From Bacteroidota bacterium (lineage in GTDB: Bacteria; Bacteroidota; Bacteroidia; Chitinophagales; Chitinophagaceae): 64,000 nucleotides of DNA. The stretch is taken from contig CANGQJ010000003.1 of assembly GCA_947456625.1 (NCBI GenBank), positions 62,001-126,000 on the forward strand, read 5' to 3'. Shown piece after piece: positions 51,638 to 64,000 of this stretch (the stretch's first letter is position 1; the number at the start of each line of letters is the position of its first letter). Under the pieces are notes generated by a model. It searched no databases, was not told the origin of the DNA, and saw only the letters and a list, made by a program, of their open reading frames with translations. Both the position numbers and the translations under genes were made by a program.

Positions 51638-51952
51638 ATGTCCGAATACGCACTCAAACAAGAACAAATTGCCCAATTTGCAAAAGCATTAGGTCACCCT
51701 GCAAGAGTGGCAATCCTAAATTTATTAATCAAAAACCAATCCTGTATTTGCGGAGATATTGTAGACGAACTTCCCTTGTCTCAAAGTACCGTTTCACAAC
51801 ATTTAAAAGAATTAAAAGAAGCGGGCATTATTAAAGGTGAAATTAGTGGTGTAAAAACTTGTTATTGTATAGACGAAGCCAATTGGGCTAAAATGGGTAA
51901 TATGCTTACAAAATTATTTGACGCATATTCCGCTCCTAAAAAATGTTGTTAA
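51638..51952 (+). CDS. arsR: ArsR family transcriptional regulator
   Basis: [49 protein letters not shown] with CxC metal-binding-like motif. Confidence 0.93.
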
Positions 51953-51970
51953 CTAAATAAATAAAATTTT

Positions 51971-52810
51971 ATGAAAACAGAATTAGAATTAAAAGAAATT
52001 GTAAAAGCAAAATATAGTGAAATTGCTTTACAAGATAAGGAAACCAATATGTCCTCTTGTTGTGGTGCAGGTGGTTGTAGCACTGAGGTTTATAATATTA
52101 TGTCCGATGACTATACCAAAATGGAAGGCTATGTGGCCGATGCCGATTTAGGTTTAGGTTGTGGACTTCCTACCGAGTTTGCAAAAATTAAAGAAGGTGA
52201 CACAGTAGTGGATTTAGGATCTGGTGCAGGCAATGATTGTTTTGTAGCTCGCAGGAGTGCTGGTGTTTCCGGTAAAGTAATTGGCGTGGATTTTACACCC
52301 GCTATGATAGAAAAAGCAAGAGCCAACGCCGAAAAAATGGGATACAATAATGTAGAGTTCAGACAAGGTGATATTGAAAACATGCCCATTGGTGGGGATG
52401 TAGCCGATGTAGTAGTAAGTAACTGTGTTTTAAATTTAGTACCCAACAAACATGCAGTATTAACGGATATTTATAGAGTATTAAAACCAGGAGGACATTT
52501 TAGTATCTCGGATGTAGTGCTTGTAGGCGCCCTACCAAACGAACTGCGCAACGCCGCAGAAATGTATGCTGGTTGTGTAAGTGGAGCTATTCAAAAGCAA
52601 GTATATTTAGAGCTCATCAATGCCTGTGGTTTTAAAAATGTGGTATTGCAAAAGGAAAAACCAATTATTATCCCAAATGATATTTTGAAAAATTATTTAT
52701 CGGATACAGAAATTGCAAAGTTTAATCAATCCGAACTTGGAATTTTCTCAGTTACTGTATACGCGGAAAAACCAGTAGCCGCATGTACTCCAGGATCGGG
52801 ATGTTGCTAA
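51971..52810 (+). CDS. arsM: Arsenite S-adenosylmethyltransferase
   Basis: SAM motif VVDLGSGAGNDCFVA, SNCVLNLVPNK, YAGCVSGA, Cys-rich CCGAGGC and C-terminal GSGCC. Confidence 0.93.
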   Translation: MKTELELKEIVKAKYSEIALQDKETNMSSCCGAGGCSTEVYNIMSDDYTKMEGYVADADLGLGCGLPTEFAKIKEGDTVVDLGSGAGNDCFVARRSAGVSGKVIGVDFTPAMIEKARANAEKMGYNNVEFRQGDIENMPIGGDVADVVVSNCVLNLVPNKHAVLTDIYRVLKPGGHFSISDVVLVGALPNELRNAAEMYAGCVSGAIQKQVYLELINACGFKNVVLQKEKPIIIPNDILKNYLSDTEIAKFNQSELGIFSVTVYAEKPVAACTPGSGCC

Positions 52811-52841
52811 AAATTATTAAATACAAACTATCTAATAAGTT

Positions 52842-53255
52842 ATGAAAAATATTTTAGTGTTATGTACTGGCAATAGTTGCCGCAGTCAAATTGCCGATGG
52901 TTATTTAACTAAGCTTACAAAAGACAAAGCCAATGTATATTCTGCAGGCGTGGAAACGCATGGTGTAAACCCAAGAGCTATTGCAATTATGCAAGAGGAT
53001 GGCATTGACATTTCAAAAAACACATCCAATAATATAACGGAGTATTTTGGGATTGATTTTGACTTTGTAATTACTGTTTGTGATAACGCCAAGGAGCGTT
53101 GCCCCTATTTCCCAACCAAAGCATTAAAATTTCATTACAATTTCCCCGACCCCGCAAAAGCAACTGGCACCGAGCAAGAAATTATGGAGCAGTTTAGGGC
53201 AGTAAGGGAAATGGTTAAAAAATACTGTGAGGACTTTGTGAAAGAAAATTTATAA
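52842..53255 (+). CDS. arsC: Arsenate reductase (low-MW PTP-like ArsC)
   Basis: VLCTGNSCRSQIADGYL (CX5R), VITVCDNAKERCPYFP. Confidence 0.92.
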   Translation: MKNILVLCTGNSCRSQIADGYLTKLTKDKANVYSAGVETHGVNPRAIAIMQEDGIDISKNTSNNITEYFGIDFDFVITVCDNAKERCPYFPTKALKFHYNFPDPAKATGTEQEIMEQFRAVREMVKKYCEDFVKENL

Positions 53256-53696
53256 ACATATCTTTTTTTTATACATTTTCTTGTCGGCTACAAATTTTTT
53301 TCTAAGATAAAAGGTTTGTGTTGTGGTTGCCACAGGATTGCATAAAACCTCAATGTTATTAATTCCCATTTGAATTGCTTTTGCTTCAACATGAGCATAT
53401 AGCACGTCAGCTAAATGGTATTTTCTATACTTAGGTGACACAAAAAAATCCTTTAGCTGAATTGCTTTTTTATTATTTATGTGAAAATCAATTTTTTCAC
53501 CAATTATGCAACCAATTATATTCCCAAGCTCATTTTCGGCCACTGCTATGATATAATTTCTAGTAGAACATATTTTATTATATTTTACAGAAAAATTTTC
53601 CATGTCAAACTCATTAAGATGAATTTGCGATAAGGATACAATGAAATAAGGTAAATCATTGGAGGTTGCTTTTCTAATTGTCCATTTGTCTGTCAT
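53250..53696 (-). CDS. GNAT family N-acetyltransferase, PhnO-like candidate
   Basis: GNAT fold; NEFDMENF, DFHINNKKAIQLKDFFVSPKYRKYHLADVLYAHVEAKA and CNPVATTTQTFYLRKKF resemble E. coli PhnO; 3' end of phosphonate-type operon. Confidence 0.7.
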   Translation of the reverse strand: MTDKWTIRKATSNDLPYFIVSLSQIHLNEFDMENFSVKYNKICSTRNYIIAVAENELGNIIGCIIGEKIDFHINNKKAIQLKDFFVSPKYRKYHLADVLYAHVEAKAIQMGINNIEVLCNPVATTTQTFYLRKKFVADKKMYKKKICL

Positions 53697-53701
53697 AATA
53701 A

Positions 53702-54379
53702 TTACAACTTTAATAAAGTAAATAGTTCTTTTAAATCATTAATTATATAATCTGGATTGGCCTGTAAGAGTTGTGCTTTATTTTGTGCCCCAGTAGTAAC
53801 CCCAATATTTAATAAACAATTTGCATTTTTGCCTTCTTCAATGTCTATTTGAGAATCTCCAATTTTAATTACATTTTTCGAATTCTCTATTTCAAATAAA
53901 TTCATTGCTAAATGTATCATATCAGGTGCTGGTCTTGAATTTTTTACATCAGAAGCAGTCACTAATAAATCATAATGATAAAATTGTCTCCAATTAATTT
54001 TATTCAAAATAAAATTGGCCGTTTTTTTATCGTAGCCTGTATTTAATACCACTAATATGTTTTTATTCCTTAGTTCTAATAACACCGTTTCGGCATTTTT
54101 CATTGCTTTTAAATCAAATATTTCATACGATTTTTCTAAATTTTGTTTAAAAAGCTCAAAAATATTATTTGCTTTTTGCAAATCCACTTCCGACCCAACA
54201 GTTTTAATAATATCTTGTATGGCATTTAACTTTTCTTTCCCAGCTCCAATGGATAAGACTTGTTCTAAACTAGCATCAATATCATACTCATTAACAGCTT
54301 TCTGCAAGGTCTTGTATACAATATTATCCTCGTCAATTGTAGTTCCAGCCATATCAAAAACAATCATAGATACTTTCAT
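53702..54379 (-). CDS. PhnX-like (phosphonatase-like) HAD hydrolase
   Basis: FDMAGTTIDED (DxAGT motif), GAGKEKLNAIQ cap-domain Lys region, SRPAPDMI, IGDSQIDIEEGKNANC; start taken at second Met, right after the PhnZ stop. Confidence 0.88.
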   Translation of the reverse strand: MKVSMIVFDMAGTTIDEDNIVYKTLQKAVNEYDIDASLEQVLSIGAGKEKLNAIQDIIKTVGSEVDLQKANNIFELFKQNLEKSYEIFDLKAMKNAETVLLELRNKNILVVLNTGYDKKTANFILNKINWRQFYHYDLLVTASDVKNSRPAPDMIHLAMNLFEIENSKNVIKIGDSQIDIEEGKNANCLLNIGVTTGAQNKAQLLQANPDYIINDLKELFTLLKL

Positions 54380-54380
54380 A

Positions 54381-54935
54381 TTATTCAATTAAAGCGTTTT
54401 CAATAATGGATTTATAGGATTCAATAGGGTCAACTTTGAAATTTGGAATTTTTGCCAAGTCATCCCATTTTCTTAGTTCCACAGCCTGTTTATAAAAAAC
54501 ATTTTTTTCAAATTCTAATTTTTGTTGATCATTCATAATGCCTCCTTGTAAAATTAAACTAGCTTTTGAAACAGAAGATAAGATACTGTAGTAACCTGGT
54601 TCTATTAAACATAAATATCTTTTAGCTGCTACATGTAATTTAACCGATTCTACCACTTCAGATTTAAAATAGGTTTCTAAAAATGCGGCACCCAACGCTT
54701 CATGTACATCGTCAATGCCTTGTTCGGTGGCGTTATCAGGTAAGTCATGTAGAAGATGTCCAATATCATGCAATAAAGCAGCTGTAATTAATTCATCCGA
54801 ACCGGATGCTTGTTTTGCAAAATAAGCTGCTTGAAGCCCATGCTCTAACTGCGTAACTGCCTCACCTCCATACAAATCACCTCCCTTAGTGTTAAATAAG
54901 TTAATGATATAATTTGCTACTAAATGTTTTTCCAT
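54381..54935 (-). CDS. phnZ: PhnZ-like HD-domain diiron oxygenase (2-amino-1-hydroxyethylphosphonate dioxygenase, glycine-forming)
   Basis: YGGEAVTQLEHGLQAA, ALLHDIGHLLHDL, DVHEALGAAFL, VKLHVAAKRYLC, LQGGIM; Y..E and HD ligand spacing matches PhnZ as recalled. Confidence 0.85.
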   Translation of the reverse strand: MEKHLVANYIINLFNTKGGDLYGGEAVTQLEHGLQAAYFAKQASGSDELITAALLHDIGHLLHDLPDNATEQGIDDVHEALGAAFLETYFKSEVVESVKLHVAAKRYLCLIEPGYYSILSSVSKASLILQGGIMNDQQKLEFEKNVFYKQAVELRKWDDLAKIPNFKVDPIESYKSIIENALIE

Positions 54936-54945
54936 AAAAATATAT

Positions 54946-56073
54946 TTAAATTTTTGCAACGGCCTCCTCTGCAAATCCAAACGAAAGTGTCATTCCATTT
55001 CCACCAATACCATTAATAATAAATACTCCAGGTTCAACTTTTAAAAATAAATCGGTGGCGCCATTAGTCATTTTAGGATAAATACCATTCCAAGATTGTT
55101 GTAAGGTCCAGTTATCAATATGTATTAATTTTTTTAGATATTTTAAAATCAATTCATTAATGTAATTATTGTCAAATGGCTCAAAATCTAAACCATATTC
55201 ATGAGAGTCACCTACCGTTAATTCGCCTTTATTATTTTGAGACACCATTACATGTATTCCATGTTTAAGATATTGAGGTAATTCTATTTCAATTTTTGTT
55301 TTTAATTTATCTAATAAAGCAGAGGCGGTAAAACTTTTATAATGAAGTAAGGACAAGCCACCGCAAACCGATGTCCCAATACGATAGTTATTATCATTTG
55401 GAACAAAGCGCATCATTTGCAACTTGGTTTTTATAATAGGAAGTTCTTTAAATTTAAAAGGATACAATGTTTCAAAATCGGCTCCAGAACATATACAAAT
55501 GATATCTGCGTTGTATTTGGTTTTAAATGACCATACCGTGTTTGTTGTTACATTGGTTACCGCTGTTCCCCATAAAATATTAATATTATAATATGTTTTT
55601 AAGTAGGTTGGTAAATTTTTAATGCCTTCTCTAGGATCAATTATAGTTTCATCGCTACTATACAAGCCAGAAAATAAATTATTATTATTAATTCCTTTAA
55701 ATTTCTTTTGTATAGTTTCTGAATTTAATAAAGTAACGGGTCTTTGAGATTTTATGAAATGTTCATATAATTCTTCTAAAACCTCATTTTCTTCATTATC
55801 ATAAGCTAAATGAACACTACCACATGGGTCAAAAGGAATTTTAGCGGACTTTAAGTACTCTTTCCAAACTTCTCTTGATCTAATTGCTCTTTCGTACAAA
55901 GGACCATCTGGTTGACCAATTGGCCATAACATTCCAAAGTTTCTAATTGATGCGCCTAAAGATTGTTGAGACCTTTCTATTATAGTAACCTTATAGCCTT
56001 TTAATGCTAAAGCTCTTGCGGTAGCCATTCCTAAAATCCCTGCACCTACTACTATGGCTGTTTTATCGCTCAT
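54946..56073 (-). CDS. TIGR03364/HpnW-like FAD-dependent oxidoreductase (DAO family)
   Basis: VVGAGILGMATARALALKGYKVTIIER, SLGASIRNFGMLWPIGQPDGPLYERAIRSREVW. Confidence 0.87.
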   Translation of the reverse strand: MSDKTAIVVGAGILGMATARALALKGYKVTIIERSQQSLGASIRNFGMLWPIGQPDGPLYERAIRSREVWKEYLKSAKIPFDPCGSVHLAYDNEENEVLEELYEHFIKSQRPVTLLNSETIQKKFKGINNNNLFSGLYSSDETIIDPREGIKNLPTYLKTYYNINILWGTAVTNVTTNTVWSFKTKYNADIICICSGADFETLYPFKFKELPIIKTKLQMMRFVPNDNNYRIGTSVCGGLSLLHYKSFTASALLDKLKTKIEIELPQYLKHGIHVMVSQNNKGELTVGDSHEYGLDFEPFDNNYINELILKYLKKLIHIDNWTLQQSWNGIYPKMTNGATDLFLKVEPGVFIINGIGGNGMTLSFGFAEEAVAKI

Positions 56074-57340
56074 AACTAAATTGATTAATTTTTCTTGTAT
56101 AATAAGTTAGTGAATAAATAGAAATTAGTAACCCAAAAACAGATGATATGATTACTCCTTTTGCATAAAATTGTGCCCAGTTTAAATTTAAATGAGCCAC
56201 CCCTTTTATATAAATAACTACTACAGAAGCAAAATATCCAAACGAGTCCATTAAATAAATTAAAAACCCCACGTTCCCTTTTAATTTAAAAGTGGCAATC
56301 ATTCGATCAAATAAAATGGAGTTAAAAGGAGTATAACCAATATACAATCCCAGTCCAACCAATAGCATCCAATAAAACCCATTTAAATAATGGTATTCAA
56401 ATAATAAGGAAAAAATAAAAACCATTAAAAAACCAAGAATAATCATGTATTGACTAATTAGAAATACCAAACTATTATTTTTGATCATTATCATACTTGC
56501 TATTATTGTTAAAACAATGATAGCAATAGGCAACTCGGTATTTGTAAAAACATTTGCATTATTATACCCCAAATTAGTCCATATATCAGAAGCAAAATTA
56601 TCCCTAAGATCTCTGAAAAGAGTAAGTACTATATATATAATTATAAAAGACAAAAGACCAGGCATAAAGGTTTTAAAAAAATGTTTTCTTTCATCTTTAT
56701 TCATTGGAAGCCTTGCTGTTTTTAACTTAACTTCCGAATCATTTGGCTCTGATATTTGTTCTAATAAAAAAACCAATATTATAATTGGAATAATAAACAT
56801 TAGGCCAGTATCAAAAGGCAACCATATATCACTCACTTGAAAATTAAGTTGTACCCATTTCCCAACCGATTTTGCAAAACCAGAAGATACAATTATACTA
56901 GCACCCATTGCAGCACCAATAAAATCAGTACCTCTCCTACCTTCTACGTATGAAAAAATAACGCCCCAGGTAATTCCTAAAGGAAACCCATTTAAAAATA
57001 AACACACAATATTTAAAGGAGTTGGAATTATGGGAAATATGAATAAGGGTATAAGTGAACAGAGCACTAATATTAATACCAATTTACCTCTGCCAACATG
57101 TTTTAGCTCGGAAATATATTTTACTCCAAAAATTTTACTTGTTGTGTATCCAAGTACTTGCGCTATAACCAATAAATTTTTAAACTCAATACCCATAAAC
57201 TTAGGCATAGTAGCGTATAACCCTACTGTAAAGGGTTTGCGAAATGCAAATATGCAAGAATAAGTTAAAAAGCATACTAAAGCCGTATAAACAGAAACAG
57301 CTATTTGGTTTTTCTTTAATTCTTGAAACTTAAAACTCAT
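56063..57340 (-). CDS. DUF5690 family MFS-like transporter
   Basis: about 12 hydrophobic segments; LTYSCIFAFRKPFTVGLY; translationally coupled to neighbours. Confidence 0.8.
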   Translation of the reverse strand: MSFKFQELKKNQIAVSVYTALVCFLTYSCIFAFRKPFTVGLYATMPKFMGIEFKNLLVIAQVLGYTTSKIFGVKYISELKHVGRGKLVLILVLCSLIPLFIFPIIPTPLNIVCLFLNGFPLGITWGVIFSYVEGRRGTDFIGAAMGASIIVSSGFAKSVGKWVQLNFQVSDIWLPFDTGLMFIIPIIILVFLLEQISEPNDSEVKLKTARLPMNKDERKHFFKTFMPGLLSFIIIYIVLTLFRDLRDNFASDIWTNLGYNNANVFTNTELPIAIIVLTIIASMIMIKNNSLVFLISQYMIILGFLMVFIFSLLFEYHYLNGFYWMLLVGLGLYIGYTPFNSILFDRMIATFKLKGNVGFLIYLMDSFGYFASVVVIYIKGVAHLNLNWAQFYAKGVIISSVFGLLISIYSLTYYTRKINQFSYER

Positions 57341-58446
57341 TTCAAAATGTAATTCAAAGGTTCGCCAACGGGATGTTTTGCAATAGTTTCATTAAAGTCT
57401 TGTCCCATTAATTTTGCAATTGTGGATGCTATTTGTTTTTGATAAAACTGCCCTGCCACTTTAACCTCCCCTAAATTTTGAATTTTTGGCCCCATTGCTG
57501 CAAGCCAAATTTGTGAGGATTCTTTAACTTCTTGGCCATGATTTTTCCATGTGGATTTCCCAGTTCCTCCTCTTCCATGATCACACGTAATTATTAAGGT
57601 AGTATTATTTTTGTACTGTGTTATAGATTGTATTGTATTCCATAAATTCGAAATCATAGCGTCTTCCGCATGTAATGATTTTAAATATTGATCATACATA
57701 CCAGAATGTGCAAAGTCATCGGTTTCATCAAATGAAATGTATAATAAACTAGGGTGATATGATTTTAGATATTCTTTGGCTGCAAAATATGTAATTATAT
57801 CAGGCCTTACATTAATTGGCTTTGCAGTTAAAAACTGCATTTCATTTAATAAATTTAATGAAGGCTCTTTAAACGAAAGCGTATCTACATCGGAATTTAC
57901 ATATACGCCACTTCTGTTTTCATTTAAAATGTATGGAAAAACATCCCATGTTGAAAATGCAGCTACTTTGCCTTTGTACGCAGGTACTTTATTCAAGTAC
58001 TCAAGCACATTTATGTTTTTATTTAAAATTTTGTCGTTAGAGTTTACCGCGTCATCCGGGAAACCTGTAAAAATTTCGTTATAACCAGGATATGAAAATT
58101 GATACTTATTTGCGACATTAAAATTTACATCATAATTCCTATTGCCTAAAATTACGCCATTACGCTGTATGGTATTCCAAATAAAAGGCGCTAGTAAACT
58201 TCTCCTATTATTTAAATCTTTGGACCAAAAATTAGTTTTAACATACTCAATATCGCCGTCATAAGTCTTATCGTTTAAAATAATGCTATCGGCACCATTG
58301 AAAATTTCTTGCCATCTTAATCCATCTAATGTAACAACGATCACATTTGGAGTGCTAATTGTAGTTTTATTCCCAGTAAAAAATAATGAAAAAATAGTTA
58401 AAAAAAAGGGTATAAATATGTCTAACATTTTGAGTTTTTTTTGCAA
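57337..58446 (-). CDS. Secreted alkaline-phosphatase-superfamily protein (type I phosphodiesterase-like)
   Basis: VIVVTLDGLRWQEIF, FDETDDFAHSGMYDQYL, TCDHGRGG, NHGQEV metal ligands; N-terminal signal/TM segment. Confidence 0.87.
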   Translation of the reverse strand: MQKKLKMLDIFIPFFLTIFSLFFTGNKTTISTPNVIVVTLDGLRWQEIFNGADSIILNDKTYDGDIEYVKTNFWSKDLNNRRSLLAPFIWNTIQRNGVILGNRNYDVNFNVANKYQFSYPGYNEIFTGFPDDAVNSNDKILNKNINVLEYLNKVPAYKGKVAAFSTWDVFPYILNENRSGVYVNSDVDTLSFKEPSLNLLNEMQFLTAKPINVRPDIITYFAAKEYLKSYHPSLLYISFDETDDFAHSGMYDQYLKSLHAEDAMISNLWNTIQSITQYKNNTTLIITCDHGRGGTGKSTWKNHGQEVKESSQIWLAAMGPKIQNLGEVKVAGQFYQKQIASTIAKLMGQDFNETIAKHPVGEPLNYILK

Positions 58447-58593: not shown

Positions 58594-59436
58594 TTAATAA
58601 GTATAAATCGCTCTTAATTGTTTAATTTTTTTATCGTTGAGTCCCATTACTTTTTCTAAATAATTATCAATTGTACCATATTGTGCTTTGATAGTTGTAA
58701 AAGTAGATTGGATGTACTCTTTTTTTGCCGACATCATGCTACTAGCAGTTTTTTCATCCAAACCATAGTATTTAGTCATTTGCGCAATGGCCTTTGCATT
58801 TTCATTTCTACGATAATAATTAGTGGCTTCATAATCATTAAAAATGATTTCTTCGTCAACGCCTAATGCATATAATATTAAGGCAGCAGCTATTCCTGTT
58901 CTATCTTTTCCTGCTGTACAATGAAATAAAATTGGGTTGGCATTTTTGTTCGAAATGAGACTATCAAATAAAGGCATGTACCTGTCTTTAAAAGGAGTTA
59001 ATACATTATAAAAACTAATCAGAAAAGAGTCTGATTTCATGTATTTACTCATATTTTTCATGTAATTGCTATCTCCTACATTTTCACTACCCGCAGGTAA
59101 TGATATACGCAAAGTTCCTACTGGAATTTTATCTGGTGCGGTTTTAACTTCATATGGGCCTCTAAAATCAAAATCGTATTTGATATGCAAGGATGCAACT
59201 TTGGATAAATCTTCGTCGGTTAAGGTATTTAAGGCGGCAGAGCGATACAATAATCCAAGCTTAACTTTTTTATCGTTTTTTGTTTTATAACCTCCAATGT
59301 CTCTAAAATTTACAGCCCCTTGTAATTTTACTTCTCTTATGTTACTATCAACTAGTTGTGCATTTTGAGCATTATAACCTTGTCCTTTTGTATTAATAAA
59401 AAAGAATATAAATAAAATTAAATAAACGTTTTTCAT
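58594..59436 (-). CDS. Secreted tyrosine/dual-specificity protein phosphatase family protein
   Basis: Signal peptide; NFRDIGGYKT, LFHCTAGKDRTGIAAALIL (CX5R). Confidence 0.9.
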   Translation of the reverse strand: MKNVYLILFIFFFINTKGQGYNAQNAQLVDSNIREVKLQGAVNFRDIGGYKTKNDKKVKLGLLYRSAALNTLTDEDLSKVASLHIKYDFDFRGPYEVKTAPDKIPVGTLRISLPAGSENVGDSNYMKNMSKYMKSDSFLISFYNVLTPFKDRYMPLFDSLISNKNANPILFHCTAGKDRTGIAAALILYALGVDEEIIFNDYEATNYYRRNENAKAIAQMTKYYGLDEKTASSMMSAKKEYIQSTFTTIKAQYGTIDNYLEKVMGLNDKKIKQLRAIYTY

Positions 59437-59451
59437 ATGTTAAAATGTAAT

Positions 59452-59958
59452 TTAAAAAGTAAATCCAAGCTGTAAACCAAGCCCTACTGAAGCAGGCGCG
59501 TAATTACCAAATCTAAAAGGCACGGGGATGGAAAACCAATAGGCATAATCATTGGTCTTATAATATACTTTATTGAAAACAAAAGTATAACCAAATCTTC
59601 CCGAAGTTTCAAATGCAACTCTTGTTAAAAAATTAAAATTATTTGGTCGTCTAAAAATAATTCCAGGATGGAATAAAAAATTAGTTTCCTTGGAAATACC
59701 ATTGACTCTTTTAATAGTAGGTGAAAATTCAAAGCTATATGCTATAGTTTTGCTTTTAAGAATGTTTATCCCCATAGGAAAGGACACCGTATATTGATGA
59801 TCGAAATTATAAGATATCCCATTTGCATCGGTAGTAAACAATGGATGGCTTATACTAAAATAGCCCTTGGTTTTCAAATTTGGATCAATTTGTTGTGATT
59901 TAACCAAACCAAATACCCCAATAAAAAGGAATAAAAGTATGATTCGCTTTCTGTTCAT
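59452..59958 (-). CDS. Hypothetical small outer-membrane beta-barrel-like protein
   Basis: Signal peptide, alternating amphipathic strands, C-terminal LGFTF. Confidence 0.5.
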   Translation of the reverse strand: MNRKRIILLFLFIGVFGLVKSQQIDPNLKTKGYFSISHPLFTTDANGISYNFDHQYTVSFPMGINILKSKTIAYSFEFSPTIKRVNGISKETNFLFHPGIIFRRPNNFNFLTRVAFETSGRFGYTFVFNKVYYKTNDYAYWFSIPVPFRFGNYAPASVGLGLQLGFTF

Positions 59959-60106: not shown

Positions 60107-61726
60107 CTATTTGATTAACCACATTTTAGCAGTCAAATCGTCTGTACCACCATATTGAGATTGTAAAGCCGCTTTGTTATTAGTTGGGTTATAGTTTGTT
60201 TCGTCCACCGGATATTGCCATCTTAATGGAATCTTAAACGATGGAGTACCAATTCCAGTACCACCTTCTTTAAATGCTGGGATTCCAGTTCTTCTCCATT
60301 GATAGTATGACTCAAAACCTGAGTTCAAGAAGAAAGAAACATATTTCTGATTTAAAATTTGCGTTAAACCAGTAGCATTGTCACCAGCATAAGCAATATT
60401 TGTTAAGAAAGTATTTACGTCATAAGTAGCCGTTCCTAATGCAGGCTTAGTACCGTCATTGTTACCAATTGCAATAGTGCCGCCTTGTTTAATACCATAC
60501 CAATCAAGAGAAGCTTGCACTCCTTTTGTATACCAGCTAGCAGCAGATTGACCTGTAACCCAACCTCTATTAGCAGCTTCCGCAATATTGAAACACATTT
60601 CACTGTAGCCTAATAAAATATAAGGCTCTGATAAAGTACCACCAATATTTGTTGAAGTCATATATCTGTTATAACTAAGACTTGCAAGCGGTGTATTGTT
60701 CGTAAATGTAAATTTCATTGAAGCAATTGCAGAATCTTGTTCCTGTCCAACATAGTTTGCAAAACTTCCAACAGGATTTGTTGCATCTATACTTAATACA
60801 CCTGGAGATAATAAAGCCAATACACGAGGATCTTTATTTGGAACTGTAACACCAATCCAAGTTTTAGAAACATTCAAACAGTTATTATATTGCGCATAAC
60901 CATATCGTTGAGGAGGGTATTGGTTGTAAGCTGAATTATAAACAAACTTCACATTATCACTATTACTTGTCATAATAGGATATTGTGTTGGGTTACTTAA
61001 AATAGCAGCAAACTGAGATTTAATATTTAAATCTGCATTGTCATCAGCACGCTTGCTTAATGAAATCAATACTCTTAATTTATAAGTATTAATTGCTTTT
61101 TGCCATTGTGCGTAAGTTAACCCAAATACATCACCACCTGCATCCACTTTTGTGTTTGCATTTGAAGTAGAAATTAAAGCAGCGATTTGTAAGTTAGCAG
61201 AATCTAATAAAGCTAAAGATTGCTTATACACATCATGCTGACTATCATACTTAGGAGTCAAGTTATTGATGTCATTTGATTGAGACATTGGGATATCACC
61301 TACTCTTTGTGTTAACCAAATGTAAGAATACGCTTTAAAAAACTTACTTAAAGCAAAGTATACATTGGTTTTGTTTTTATACTGATTAAACGCTTGTTCC
61401 TCCATTTTCACACAATACTTAATATTATCATAAGTAGTGCTTGTAGTTGACCAGTTGTAGGCGTTTGAACCGAAATAATAAGTATAGTTAGACACTACGT
61501 TTTGGTTATACTTATACACGTTAGAAACGATAGGATCTTCTTCCTTCATTAAATTCGCAGTAATGTGATTTAATATTAATGAGGAAGGGATGGTAGAGCT
61601 TTCCGCAGCCACGTTTGGATTGGATAACAAATCGCCTTTTTGGCAACCTGTGATACCAAAACTTACAGCTACTAAGCCTAAGATGATATTACTTAATTTG
61701 ATTTTCATATAATTACTTTTATACAT
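60107..61726 (-). CDS. SusD/RagB family nutrient-binding outer membrane lipoprotein
   Basis: Lipobox ITGCQKG, helical SusD-like sequence, CFNIAEAANRGW, directly downstream of SusC. Confidence 0.9.
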   Translation of the reverse strand: MYKSNYMKIKLSNIILGLVAVSFGITGCQKGDLLSNPNVAAESSTIPSSLILNHITANLMKEEDPIVSNVYKYNQNVVSNYTYYFGSNAYNWSTTSTTYDNIKYCVKMEEQAFNQYKNKTNVYFALSKFFKAYSYIWLTQRVGDIPMSQSNDINNLTPKYDSQHDVYKQSLALLDSANLQIAALISTSNANTKVDAGGDVFGLTYAQWQKAINTYKLRVLISLSKRADDNADLNIKSQFAAILSNPTQYPIMTSNSDNVKFVYNSAYNQYPPQRYGYAQYNNCLNVSKTWIGVTVPNKDPRVLALLSPGVLSIDATNPVGSFANYVGQEQDSAIASMKFTFTNNTPLASLSYNRYMTSTNIGGTLSEPYILLGYSEMCFNIAEAANRGWVTGQSAASWYTKGVQASLDWYGIKQGGTIAIGNNDGTKPALGTATYDVNTFLTNIAYAGDNATGLTQILNQKYVSFFLNSGFESYYQWRRTGIPAFKEGGTGIGTPSFKIPLRWQYPVDETNYNPTNNKAALQSQYGGTDDLTAKMWLIK

Positions 61727-61734
61727 TTTGAATT

Positions 61735-64000
61735 TTAGAAGTTAAGATTAATGTTAAATCCGAATCTTCTTGCAGTAGCAGATTGTAAAATCGCTCCTTT
61801 TTGTAAAGATCTATCTGAGTCATTATATCCAGAGGCAAATTGATCTAAGTCCTGGTCTTTTCTATCAGCAAAGTATAATAAGTTTCTACCTACTAATGAG
61901 ATAGTTGCACCTTTAATATACTTTAACTTAGCTAAAAAGTTTGCAGGTAAAGAATAAGCAATATTTACTTCACGTAATTTTACAAAAGAACGATTAGTCA
62001 TCCAATACTCATCCACACCACCGTAACCAGAAGCTCCAGCAATTGTTTGTACTTTAGCAGCAACATCATTTTGAGCGAAAGTCAATGCACTCATATTTGT
62101 TATCACACCACCTGCATAAGTTGGAGTACCAGATACAATTTTAACACCAGGTCCAACATATTTAGCAGTTTGAGCTACAGTACCATTTGCAGTTGTTTGC
62201 CATTCTGCTAAACGAGCAGCACCAATTGCACCTTGAGTAGACTCAATTGAAGTACCACCATTCATACCATCATGATAAATTTGGTCGTAGATATTTCCAC
62301 CAATTCTACCATCAAATTGGAAACCAAAGCTTACATTTTTGAAAGTGAATTTGTTGCTAATTCCAAAAGTATAATCAGGATTTGCAAATCCTAAGAATTT
62401 ATTGTTACCAATATCTGAAGGCGCTCTTAATGGAGTACCACCAGACCAAACAATATTGTTTGAACCATCACGTACAAATGCAGAACCATAAATCGCATCT
62501 AAACGATCGCCTACTTTGTAAACGTGGTTGTTTAAAGTTAAGCCGGTTTCAGAACCATAAATTGCATCCAATGTTTCTTGGTAAGTTGCATAAGTAGCAT
62601 TGATATCCCAGTTAAAGTTAGCAGTTTTGATAGGTGTTCCAGATAAAGTAATTTCAAAACCTGCTTTTTTAGAAGTGATACCATTTACGTTTTGTGCAGC
62701 ATAACCTGTTGAAGATGCTACTGGTAAAGCGTAAATTTGAGGTCCGTTAAAGCTTGTAAAGTAAGTGAAGTCAAATCCTAATCTGTTTTTTGCAAATTTT
62801 AAATCAACACCACCTTCATATGAAGTACGGTCAAATGGTTTTAAAGTACTATTTGCAATGGTATTAGAATAACCTACCGAAGGAGTTCCATTATAATAAG
62901 TTTGGAATGCGTATGCATTTTGGTTTGCATAAGAAGGGCCATCATAAGAACTATATAAGTCAGAGCCATATCCTAATAAACCACCATTGGTACTTGTACC
63001 AGTAATTGCAGTGAATGCAGAAGGAACAGTAGATTGAGTTAATCCACCTTTTACATCGGCAAATGAAGCACGTACTTTAGCAAAAGAAATAAATGAAGGT
63101 AAATTCAAATAATCTTTTAAAGCAGAACTTAATGATACGGAAGGATAGAAGAAAGTATTGTTTCCATCAGGTAAAGTAGATAATTGATCTAAACGACCTG
63201 TGTGAGATAAAGTAGCATACTTACTTAATGTTAAATCCACAGAGTAAAATGCGCTATACACTTGCATTCTTGAATTCCATGTATAAGCTAAAGCGGCATC
63301 TTTTGTATTTGACAATACATATAAGTTTGGAACCGCTAATGCTTTGGTAGTTCCCCAGAAAGAGTTGTAAGCAAAAGATCTTTCAGAAACACCCGCTAAA
63401 GCAGAGATACCAATTTGACCTACTTTCTTTTCGTAATTAGCAGTTAAGTCAGTATTATTTTCGGTCAATCTTCTGCTATCCTCATGGTAGTCACCATACC
63501 ATCCAAAGTAGAACCATGGAGTGTACGTATTTAAGTTAGCGCCTGCTGGAACTTGTTCAGTTCTTAATTGGCTCCAAGTAGAGAATTGAGAACGTAAGTT
63601 GAATGTTAAATCGTTGGTTGGCTTATAAGAAGCTTTTACATATCCATTCACATCTGTTTTATCATGAGAACGTAACCACTTTTTAGCCATAAACCAAGCA
63701 CTGTTTTCACGACCATATTCTTGAGCATATGGAATTAAGTTTTGAACTCCTTGTGGTCCTTTATAGATATCTTTTAAGTCATTGATATCGTAATCAGATG
63801 ATCCATATACTTTAAACATATAGATGTAAGAGTTTGGACCATAGTTTACGTCAGGAATATTTGGAGAGTATTGCTTATTCATGTTTAAGCTAGCTTCTAA
63901 TCTTAATTTCTTAGAAATGTTGTAGCCACCATTCACTGCTAAAGTATAAGAATTTAACTTTGTGTTTGGAGACATCCCTTTTTGATCCATATTAGAAATA
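61735..64000 (-). CDS. SusC/RagA family TonB-linked outer membrane protein (N-terminus outside window)
   Basis: SusC C-terminal barrel features (NKFLGFANPDYTFGISNKFTFKNVSFGFQFDGRIGGNIYD, NRSFVKLREVNIAYSLP, ISLVGRNLLYFADRKDQDLDQ). Confidence 0.93.
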   Translation of the reverse strand, partial: ISNMDQKGMSPNTKLNSYTLAVNGGYNISKKLRLEASLNMNKQYSPNIPDVNYGPNSYIYMFKVYGSSDYDINDLKDIYKGPQGVQNLIPYAQEYGRENSAWFMAKKWLRSHDKTDVNGYVKASYKPTNDLTFNLRSQFSTWSQLRTEQVPAGANLNTYTPWFYFGWYGDYHEDSRRLTENNTDLTANYEKKVGQIGISALAGVSERSFAYNSFWGTTKALAVPNLYVLSNTKDAALAYTWNSRMQVYSAFYSVDLTLSKYATLSHTGRLDQLSTLPDGNNTFFYPSVSLSSALKDYLNLPSFISFAKVRASFADVKGGLTQSTVPSAFTAITGTSTNGGLLGYGSDLYSSYDGPSYANQNAYAFQTYYNGTPSVGYSNTIANSTLKPFDRTSYEGGVDLKFAKNRLGFDFTYFTSFNGPQIYALPVASSTGYAAQNVNGITSKKAGFEITLSGTPIKTANFNWDINATYATYQETLDAIYGSETGLTLNNHVYKVGDRLDAIYGSAFVRDGSNNIVWSGGTPLRAPSDIGNNKFLGFANPDYTFGISNKFTFKNVSFGFQFDGRIGGNIYDQIYHDGMNGGTSIESTQGAIGAARLAEWQTTANGTVAQTAKYVGPGVKIVSGTPTYAGGVITNMSALTFAQNDVAAKVQTIAGASGYGGVDEYWMTNRSFVKLREVNIAYSLPANFLAKLKYIKGATISLVGRNLLYFADRKDQDLDQFASGYNDSDRSLQKGAILQSATARRFGFNINLNF

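Follow-up and report, generated by a model that had tools for sequence, protein, structure and literature searches.

The closest described counterparts of the locus include: (i) phnZ genes without phnY* in phnWX and phnWAY clusters, tabulated in 2021 as 15 and 24 clusters, respectively, against 7 of phnY*Z (PMC8154272, Table 1), and never found with pbfA (PMC8154272), (ii) the HpnW-PhnX-PhnHD set of Achromobacter, described in 2024 without PhnY*, for which HAEP was considered the likely substrate and the function was called open (PMC11203657), and (iii) the PbfD2-PhnX route of Mariniblastus fucicola, in which an FAD oxidase and a phosphonatase serve AEP/N-methyl-AEP without PhnW (PMC10590968). 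In the phnWX/phnWAY clusters the oxygenase is an accessory branch to the hydrolytic AEP route, suggested for R-HAEP, which PhnW-PhnX is unable to process properly; R-HAEP is noted in Acanthamoeba glycans, and HAEP in the lipids of the predatory bacterium Bdellovibrio stolpii (PMC8154272). Two TIGR03364 members, PbfD1 and PbfD2, form phosphonoacetaldehyde by oxidation of N-methyl-AEP; PbfD2 accepts AEP as well (PMC10590968). The core idea of a hydroxylase-less oxygenase beside AEP-hydrolytic genes is, thus, already known (PMC8154272, PMC11203657).

The window (the whole 64,000-nucleotide stretch of Bacteroidota DNA that was analysed) carries a minus-strand locus in the order SusC, SusD, 168-aa protein, PTP-fold phosphatase, PF01663 phosphodiesterase, DUF5690, FAD oxidoreductase, oxygenase, HAD and GNAT. 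The stretch that begins with the phosphodiesterase and ends with GNAT, downstream of SusC/SusD, is a tight operon whose neighbouring genes overlap or are no more than 11 bp apart. By ascending coordinate, the features are:

53250..53696, minus strand: GNAT acetyltransferase, with a weak aminoalkylphosphonate N-acetyltransferase match (34.7 bits against a cut-off of 142)
53702..54388, minus strand: HAD hydrolase, phosphonatase-like (TIGR03351, 211 bits against a cut-off of 218.9)
54381..54935, minus strand: predicted HD-domain diiron oxygenase of the PhnZ/TmpB family (ATG at 54935; 184 aa; YGGE variant of the YxxE loop)
54946..56073, minus strand: FAD-dependent oxidoreductase of the HpnW/PbfD group (TIGR03364, 393.2 bits, passing the cut-off of 285)
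56063..57340, minus strand: DUF5690 MFS-fold protein, candidate phosphonate transporter (PF18943, 480 bits; FRKPF motif in an early helix)
57337..58446, minus strand: alkaline-phosphatase-superfamily phosphodiesterase (PF01663; hydrophobic N-terminus, export signal judged by eye)
58594..59436, minus strand: PTP-fold phosphatase, possible locus member (PF13350; HCTAGKDRT motif; hydrophobic N-terminus)
59452..59958, minus strand: 168-aa exported/outer-membrane-like protein, loose locus member (no family match)
60107..61726, minus strand: SusD-like outer-membrane lipoprotein (PF12771)
61735..63990, minus strand: SusC/RagA TonB-dependent receptor, C-terminal two thirds (profile positions 311-981 of 981), apparently extending beyond the window end

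The operon and the Achromobacter cluster share a TIGR03276 oxygenase, a TIGR03364-type FAD oxidase and a phosphonatase, and both are without PhnW and PhnY*. By contrast, the Achromobacter cluster encodes a LysR activator and phnSUT transport, and its phosphonatase is a true PhnX (PMC11203657); in the window, the PhnX-like HAD belongs to TIGR03351, and SusC/SusD, exported phosphoesterases and DUF5690 are present. Compared to the phnWX/phnWAY clusters, an FAD oxidase replaces PhnW in the window. The published pathway of M. fucicola has neither a PhnZ-type oxygenase nor Sus/DUF5690 uptake genes (PMC10590968), whereas the window has both. Searches of the open literature did not recover the Bacteroidota SusC/SusD and exported-phosphoesterase arrangement, the DUF5690-phosphonate association or a separate YGGE clade; relative to that literature, the Sus-type context, the interchangeable exported phosphoesterases and DUF5690 as a candidate transporter are new here.

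Related loci retain this architecture. Locus L104, with an oxygenase 74% identical to that of the window, has all of the locus genes in the same order except for the 168-aa protein, while L106 has most of them; the GNAT gene is at the same position, and the PTP-fold phosphatase is conserved, in both. The L104 orthologue of the window HAD clears the TIGR03351 cut-off (220.2 bits). The window HAD scores 108.3 bits against the PhnX model TIGR01422, below the cut-off of 220, and belongs to the TIGR03351 PhnX-like group; it has a DMAGTT nucleophile motif (DxAGT) and a Lys aligned with PhnX Lys53, with a weak alignment of the cap. The window phosphodiesterase had no match in a PDB sequence search. 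In related loci, the exported phosphoesterase falls into four other groups (PF04185 with a propeller, PhoD, a calcineurin-type and another alkaline-phosphatase-superfamily protein). Because unrelated esterases fill this role, the freeing of the head group, and not the particular protein, may be what matters. The genome has no PhnW above the cut-off and no PepM (PEP mutase), so the operon looks catabolic, with the PbfD-type FAD oxidase as the only visible entry for AEP. An arsR-arsM-arsC operon on the plus strand (window 51638-53255) is convergent with, and touches, the phosphonate operon; its arsM encodes an arsenite methyltransferase (356 bits) and its arsC a thioredoxin-type arsenate reductase.

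Sequence comparison and a structure model identify the window protein as a genuine member of the PhnZ/TmpB diiron oxygenase family, with predicted catalysis. The nearest solved structure is TmpB (6npa; phmmer E = 8.2e-33, 41% identical), followed by PhnZ (4mlm; E = 4.8e-29, 37% identical), and the PDB sequence search gave no credible match beyond these two. In the alignment, window residues Y22/E25, H32, H56-D57, H60, H78, H101, K105, R155 and D158 correspond to PhnZ Y24/E27, H34, H58-D59, H62, H80, H104, K108, R158 and D161. The sequence-only reading had listed the diiron and YxxE residues with their PhnZ counterparts; each of them is present, and the PhnZ numbering agrees with the phmmer alignment. 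Nine residues (H32, H56, D57, H60, H78, H101, K105, R155 and D158) are invariant in both the 20-row and 25-row alignments of relatives, while Y22 is invariant in the former and at least 90% conserved in the latter, and E25 is at least 90% conserved in the former and invariant in the latter. The AlphaFold model (mean pLDDT 92.6) matches only 10 PhnZ/TmpB chains at E < 0.001 (TM 0.81-0.88), with TmpB at E 2.2e-13 and PhnZ at 4.6e-12, compared to E 0.3 for MIOX and E > 0.07 for generic HD proteins and hydrolases. Thus, alignment, tree and fold search together uphold the assignment to PhnZ/TmpB-type oxygenases over MIOX or a generic HD phosphohydrolase, and the comparison with the PhnZ structure that had been proposed for this gene revealed neither a displaced active site nor a grouping with MIOX or HD proteins. 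The protein scores 207.1 bits on the family profile, just below the cut-off; as a TmpB that passes its own cut-off scores 202.1 bits on the same profile, the family threshold cannot separate members.

Within the family, the description 'PhnZ-like' holds at the family level and fails at the subgroup level. In a tree of 118 homologues with PhnZ and TmpB, these two fall on opposite sides of a branch with support of 100/97. The window protein groups with the TmpB half, within a clade of 13 rows (support 100/96) that is mainly of Bacteroidota and adjoins Planctomycetota; this clade is part of a wider one of 21 rows with weak support, in which no row has a detected PhyH or TauD neighbour. PhnZ (HF130_AEPn_1) has all catalytic residues in common with the window protein but is on the opposite side of the split, and the window has no PhnY* partner. 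TmpB (Leisingera caerulea) shares the half of the tree, and the window has no TmpA (TauD) partner; TmpB and the TmpA-paired sequences form a subclade distinct from the window clade. Eight alignment columns distinguish the TmpA-paired proteins from the window clade (positions 17, 23, 29, 62, 64, 81, 154 and 161), and at none of them does the window protein have the TmpB-typical residue. Position 23 of the YxxE loop is Gly in the window clade (12/12 rows), compared to Ile in PhnZ (YIGE) and Leu in TmpB (YLGE), and a YGGE-xVTQ signature is invariant in the clade (12/12 rows). Scores against the equivalogs of TmpB (NF049941, 170.9 bits) and of the GmPhnZ1 hydroxymethylphosphonate dioxygenase (NF052439, 172.3 bits) are both below the cut-off of 300. 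The protein departs from PhnZ sensu stricto in grouping with TmpB and in having no PhyH in its operon, and from TmpB sensu stricto in its NF049941 score and in having no TmpA (TauD) neighbour. By sequence, it is, thus, inside the family but outside every characterised subgroup. In G300, a genome of the same genus, a comparable operon encodes a protein from the PhnZ side; two deep oxygenase lineages, therefore, occupy the same kind of operon. Two other genomes hold two PhnZ-family genes each, one per deep lineage: G013 (L039, L040) and G185 (L053, L071). In G185, a PhyH accompanies one of the two genes, and FAD and DUF5690 accompany the other.

Hydroxylases of the PF02668 (TauD) and PF05721 (PhyH) families were searched for as PhnY*/TmpA-type partners. 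The operon has no gene of either family, in agreement with the earlier remark that no PhnY is visible here. TauD/TfdA (PF02668) is absent from the whole 2.24-Mb assembly (89.6% complete, which makes an absence in this genome alone suggestive rather than conclusive), and the sole PhyH (PF05721) is a weak 32-bit match outside the operon (G000:C2:124853-125860), so the genome search for PhnY advised by the sequence-only reading returned one PhyH that looks unrelated. This PhyH is surrounded by ABC-transporter, hydrolase and amidohydrolase genes, is 24% identical to the PhyH adjoining PhnZ in L071, and is 58-96% conserved across scattered genomes with and without PhnZ (G202 and G361 lack PhnZ). 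It was not found in the complete genome G300, which has PhnZ in a like operon. A PhyH of some kind is present in 11 of the 12 genomes that hold relatives from the window clade. Neither PhyH nor TauD was detected in four PhnZ-bearing genomes of 99-100% completeness (G150, G265, G330 and G373), of which three have the PhnZ-HAD-DUF5690-FAD order. The suggestion that PhnY is encoded elsewhere is weakened by these near-complete relatives and is improbable.

A missing neighbour is common in the family. An adjacent hydroxylase was noted at 19 of 121 loci (PhyH in L071, L073 and L160; TauD in 16), with none detected at the other 102, and just two loci (L071 and L073) have an adjacent PhyH among 40 oxygenase-bearing Bacteroidia genomes. 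The absence of PhnY is, thus, less surprising than the sequence-only reading held, and such loci are already published (PMC8154272, PMC11203657). As 102 of the 121 sampled homologues are without a detected adjacent hydroxylase, counting phnZ in metagenomes as 'AEP oxidation' is unsafe. AEP-hydrolytic genes (FAD/HAD/PhnA/PhnW) are within 9 kb at 66 of the 102 loci without an adjacent hydroxylase, compared to 2 of the 19 with one. This exclusion is mostly at the level of clades and is not significant once ancestry is respected (5 independent contrasts); a phylogeny-aware claim that hydroxylases exclude DUF5690/AEP genes was set aside, as so few contrasts give no power. The L074-type PhyH (141 bits) was likewise rejected as a hidden PhnY*, with a Gfo/Idh-type oxidoreductase as its neighbour and approximately 30% identity to PhnZ-linked PhyH.

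DUF5690 (PF18943) is present in 37 of 40 PhnZ-bearing genomes and in 4 of 40 without PhnZ (Fisher p 1.7e-14, with controls drawn largely from other families); two of these four have a TIGR03364 gene. Away from phnZ, the DUF5690 gene often adjoins PhnW, PhnX-like HAD, FAD or PHP genes. A PDB sequence search with DUF5690 gave no match. Its structure model has an MFS fold, for which Foldseek returns MFS proteins in general, with the organophosphate transporter G6PT at rank 4, and hhalign relates it nearly end-to-end to the GlpT/PgtP-like (OPA-type) proteins of other phnZ loci (83% probability, E 8.6e-6, 366 columns). DUF5690 is, thus, a candidate aminophosphonate importer. The open-licence literature yielded nothing relevant that links DUF5690 or SusD to aminoethylphosphonate, which is weak evidence of novelty. 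In genome G057, a PhnZ-type gene is split in two frames (G057:C1:2942598-2943123) and a DUF5690 gene (1051999-1053155) has an internal TAG; both genes are apparently disrupted, through loss of the function or an assembly error.

The reading that we favour, with a confidence only slightly above even, is that the operon is a scavenging system for preformed aminophosphonates, in which the oxygenase forms a parallel branch that needs no PhnY*/TmpA and acts on a predicted substrate. It builds on the computed family, fold and active-site residues, the operon order, the genome without TauD or a PhnZ-linked PhyH, and the association with DUF5690 and AEP-hydrolytic genes; for the cellular location of the parts, the transport role of DUF5690, the substrate and the products, we infer the following scheme. 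Small aminophosphonates would probably be liberated from environmental phosphonolipids or phosphonoglycans, with SusC/SusD bringing material across the outer membrane, the exported phosphoesterases freeing the phosphonate head group, and DUF5690 carrying the head group into the cytoplasm. In one branch, deamination of AEP and N-methyl-AEP by the PbfD-type FAD oxidase would yield phosphonoacetaldehyde, and the PhnX-like HAD would then cleave this product to release Pi. In the other, the oxygenase would take a 1-hydroxylated aminophosphonate, most likely (R)-1-hydroxy-2-aminoethylphosphonate ((R)-OH-AEP), and use O2 to split the C-P bond to Pi and glycine (or N-methylated glycine). Without a hydroxylase, a compound imported in hydroxylated form would be the simplest substrate, and PhnY*/TmpA would be unnecessary since the hydroxyl is already in place. 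The branches are placed in parallel, rather than in series, because the oxygenase is retained in loci that differ in the enzyme of entry (FAD oxidase or PhnW) and in that of exit (HAD or PhnA). Direct import of OH-AEP is the best supported of the three explanations offered by the sequence-only reading, given the adjacent AEP-hydrolytic genes, the candidate transporter and the relatives without PhyH/TauD, and it stands as a prediction. Against it are the substrate-loop residue Gly23, at which the window clade departs from both PhnZ and TmpB and which may indicate another substrate, the poor turnover of HAEP by TmpB and GmPhnZ (PMC11203657), and the incompleteness of the genome (89.6% complete), together with its one divergent PhyH.

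The same kind of operon could instead present the oxygenase with a different imported 1-hydroxyphosphonate (e.g., hydroxymethylphosphonate, N-methylated OH-AEP or an unknown head group), a possibility that we consider real but rather unlikely. It fits a separate clade with an invariant YGGE-xVTQ, unlike YIGE of PhnZ and YLGE of TmpB, the roughly equal TmpB and hydroxymethylphosphonate dioxygenase scores (170.9 and 172.3, both far below 300), and the preference of the neighbouring PbfD group for N-methyl-AEP (PMC10590968). By contrast, the checked substrate- and metal-binding residues of PhnZ/TmpB are kept, including the amine-binding Glu25, and HAEP is the one ligand common to the three characterised relatives (PMC11203657). 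An extension of this idea, in which the YGGE-xVTQ clade of Bacteroidota and Planctomycetota is a new functional group of diiron oxygenases for a 1-hydroxyphosphonate new to this chemistry, freed by exported phosphoesterases and imported by DUF5690 as a new transporter family, is doubtful but conceivable. A normal two-step oxidative pathway from AEP, with a PhnY*/TmpA-like hydroxylase at another genomic site or in the 10% missing from the assembly, is improbable: while the genome is incomplete, its one PhyH shares 24% identity with the PhnZ-linked PhyH of L071 and nearly all genomes with clade relatives have some PhyH, the lone PhyH is conserved regardless of PhnZ, absent from G300 and located among unrelated genes. 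Moreover, true pairs are adjacent where they exist, as in the three PhyH and 16 TauD loci, the genome is without TauD, and the four near-complete relatives are without either family.

A serial arrangement, in which the oxygenase receives its substrate from the FAD oxidase or from some other enzyme of the operon, was left as a possibility for the Achromobacter set (PMC11203657), and the FAD and oxygenase genes adjoin in the window. It is very improbable for this operon, as the oxygenase occurs without an FAD gene, and with PhnW-HAD or PhnA, in L035, L038, L042-L044 and L056, and as known PbfD enzymes yield an aldehyde and not a 1-hydroxy compound (PMC10590968). In a partial Mantel test over 20 loci, oxygenase divergence was uncorrelated with that of the FAD oxidase given HAD and DUF5690 (partial r -0.04) and did not significantly track HAD (partial r 0.10, p 0.08); the latter result also led to the rejection of a co-replacement of oxygenase and HAD, both of which had looked foreign compared to the G300 operon. 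That the protein is an HD phosphohydrolase retaining an oxygenase-like active site is barely credible: the H...HD...H...H...D motif is common to some dimetal hydrolases (PMC11203657), but the window protein has the YxxE loop and a fifth His, and its structure model matches TmpB/PhnZ alone (hydrolases at E > 0.07).

If the scavenging reading is true, phosphonate scavenging in Bacteroidota is organised as a Sus-type utilisation locus, DUF5690 (a domain of unknown function) is named as a testable phosphonate transporter, and the operon bears on the question raised in PMC11203657, namely the role of a PhnY*-less oxygenase beside a flavin oxidase and phosphonatase.

Other genes recur in related loci. 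A zinc alcohol dehydrogenase (TIGR03366 'HpnZ') is found by the oxygenase and DUF5690 in L108 (283 bits against a cut-off of 328), L113, L115, L117, L139, L152 and L158. An XRE-cupin regulator of approximately 190 aa, a candidate phosphonate sensor, recurs in L036, L041, L047, L051, L054, L055, L063, L065 and L191-L192, and a PHP-type (histidinol-phosphatase-like) protein of approximately 288 aa recurs by DUF5690 or the oxygenase in L038, L041, L043, L045, L051, L056, L197, L199 and L200. L105 (CALPWK020000202.1, 3262 bases), binned as Comamonas, has DUF5690-FAD-oxygenase-HAD genes 63-77% identical to those of the window and is probably a misbinned contig of Bacteroidota origin, or else the product of a recent transfer.
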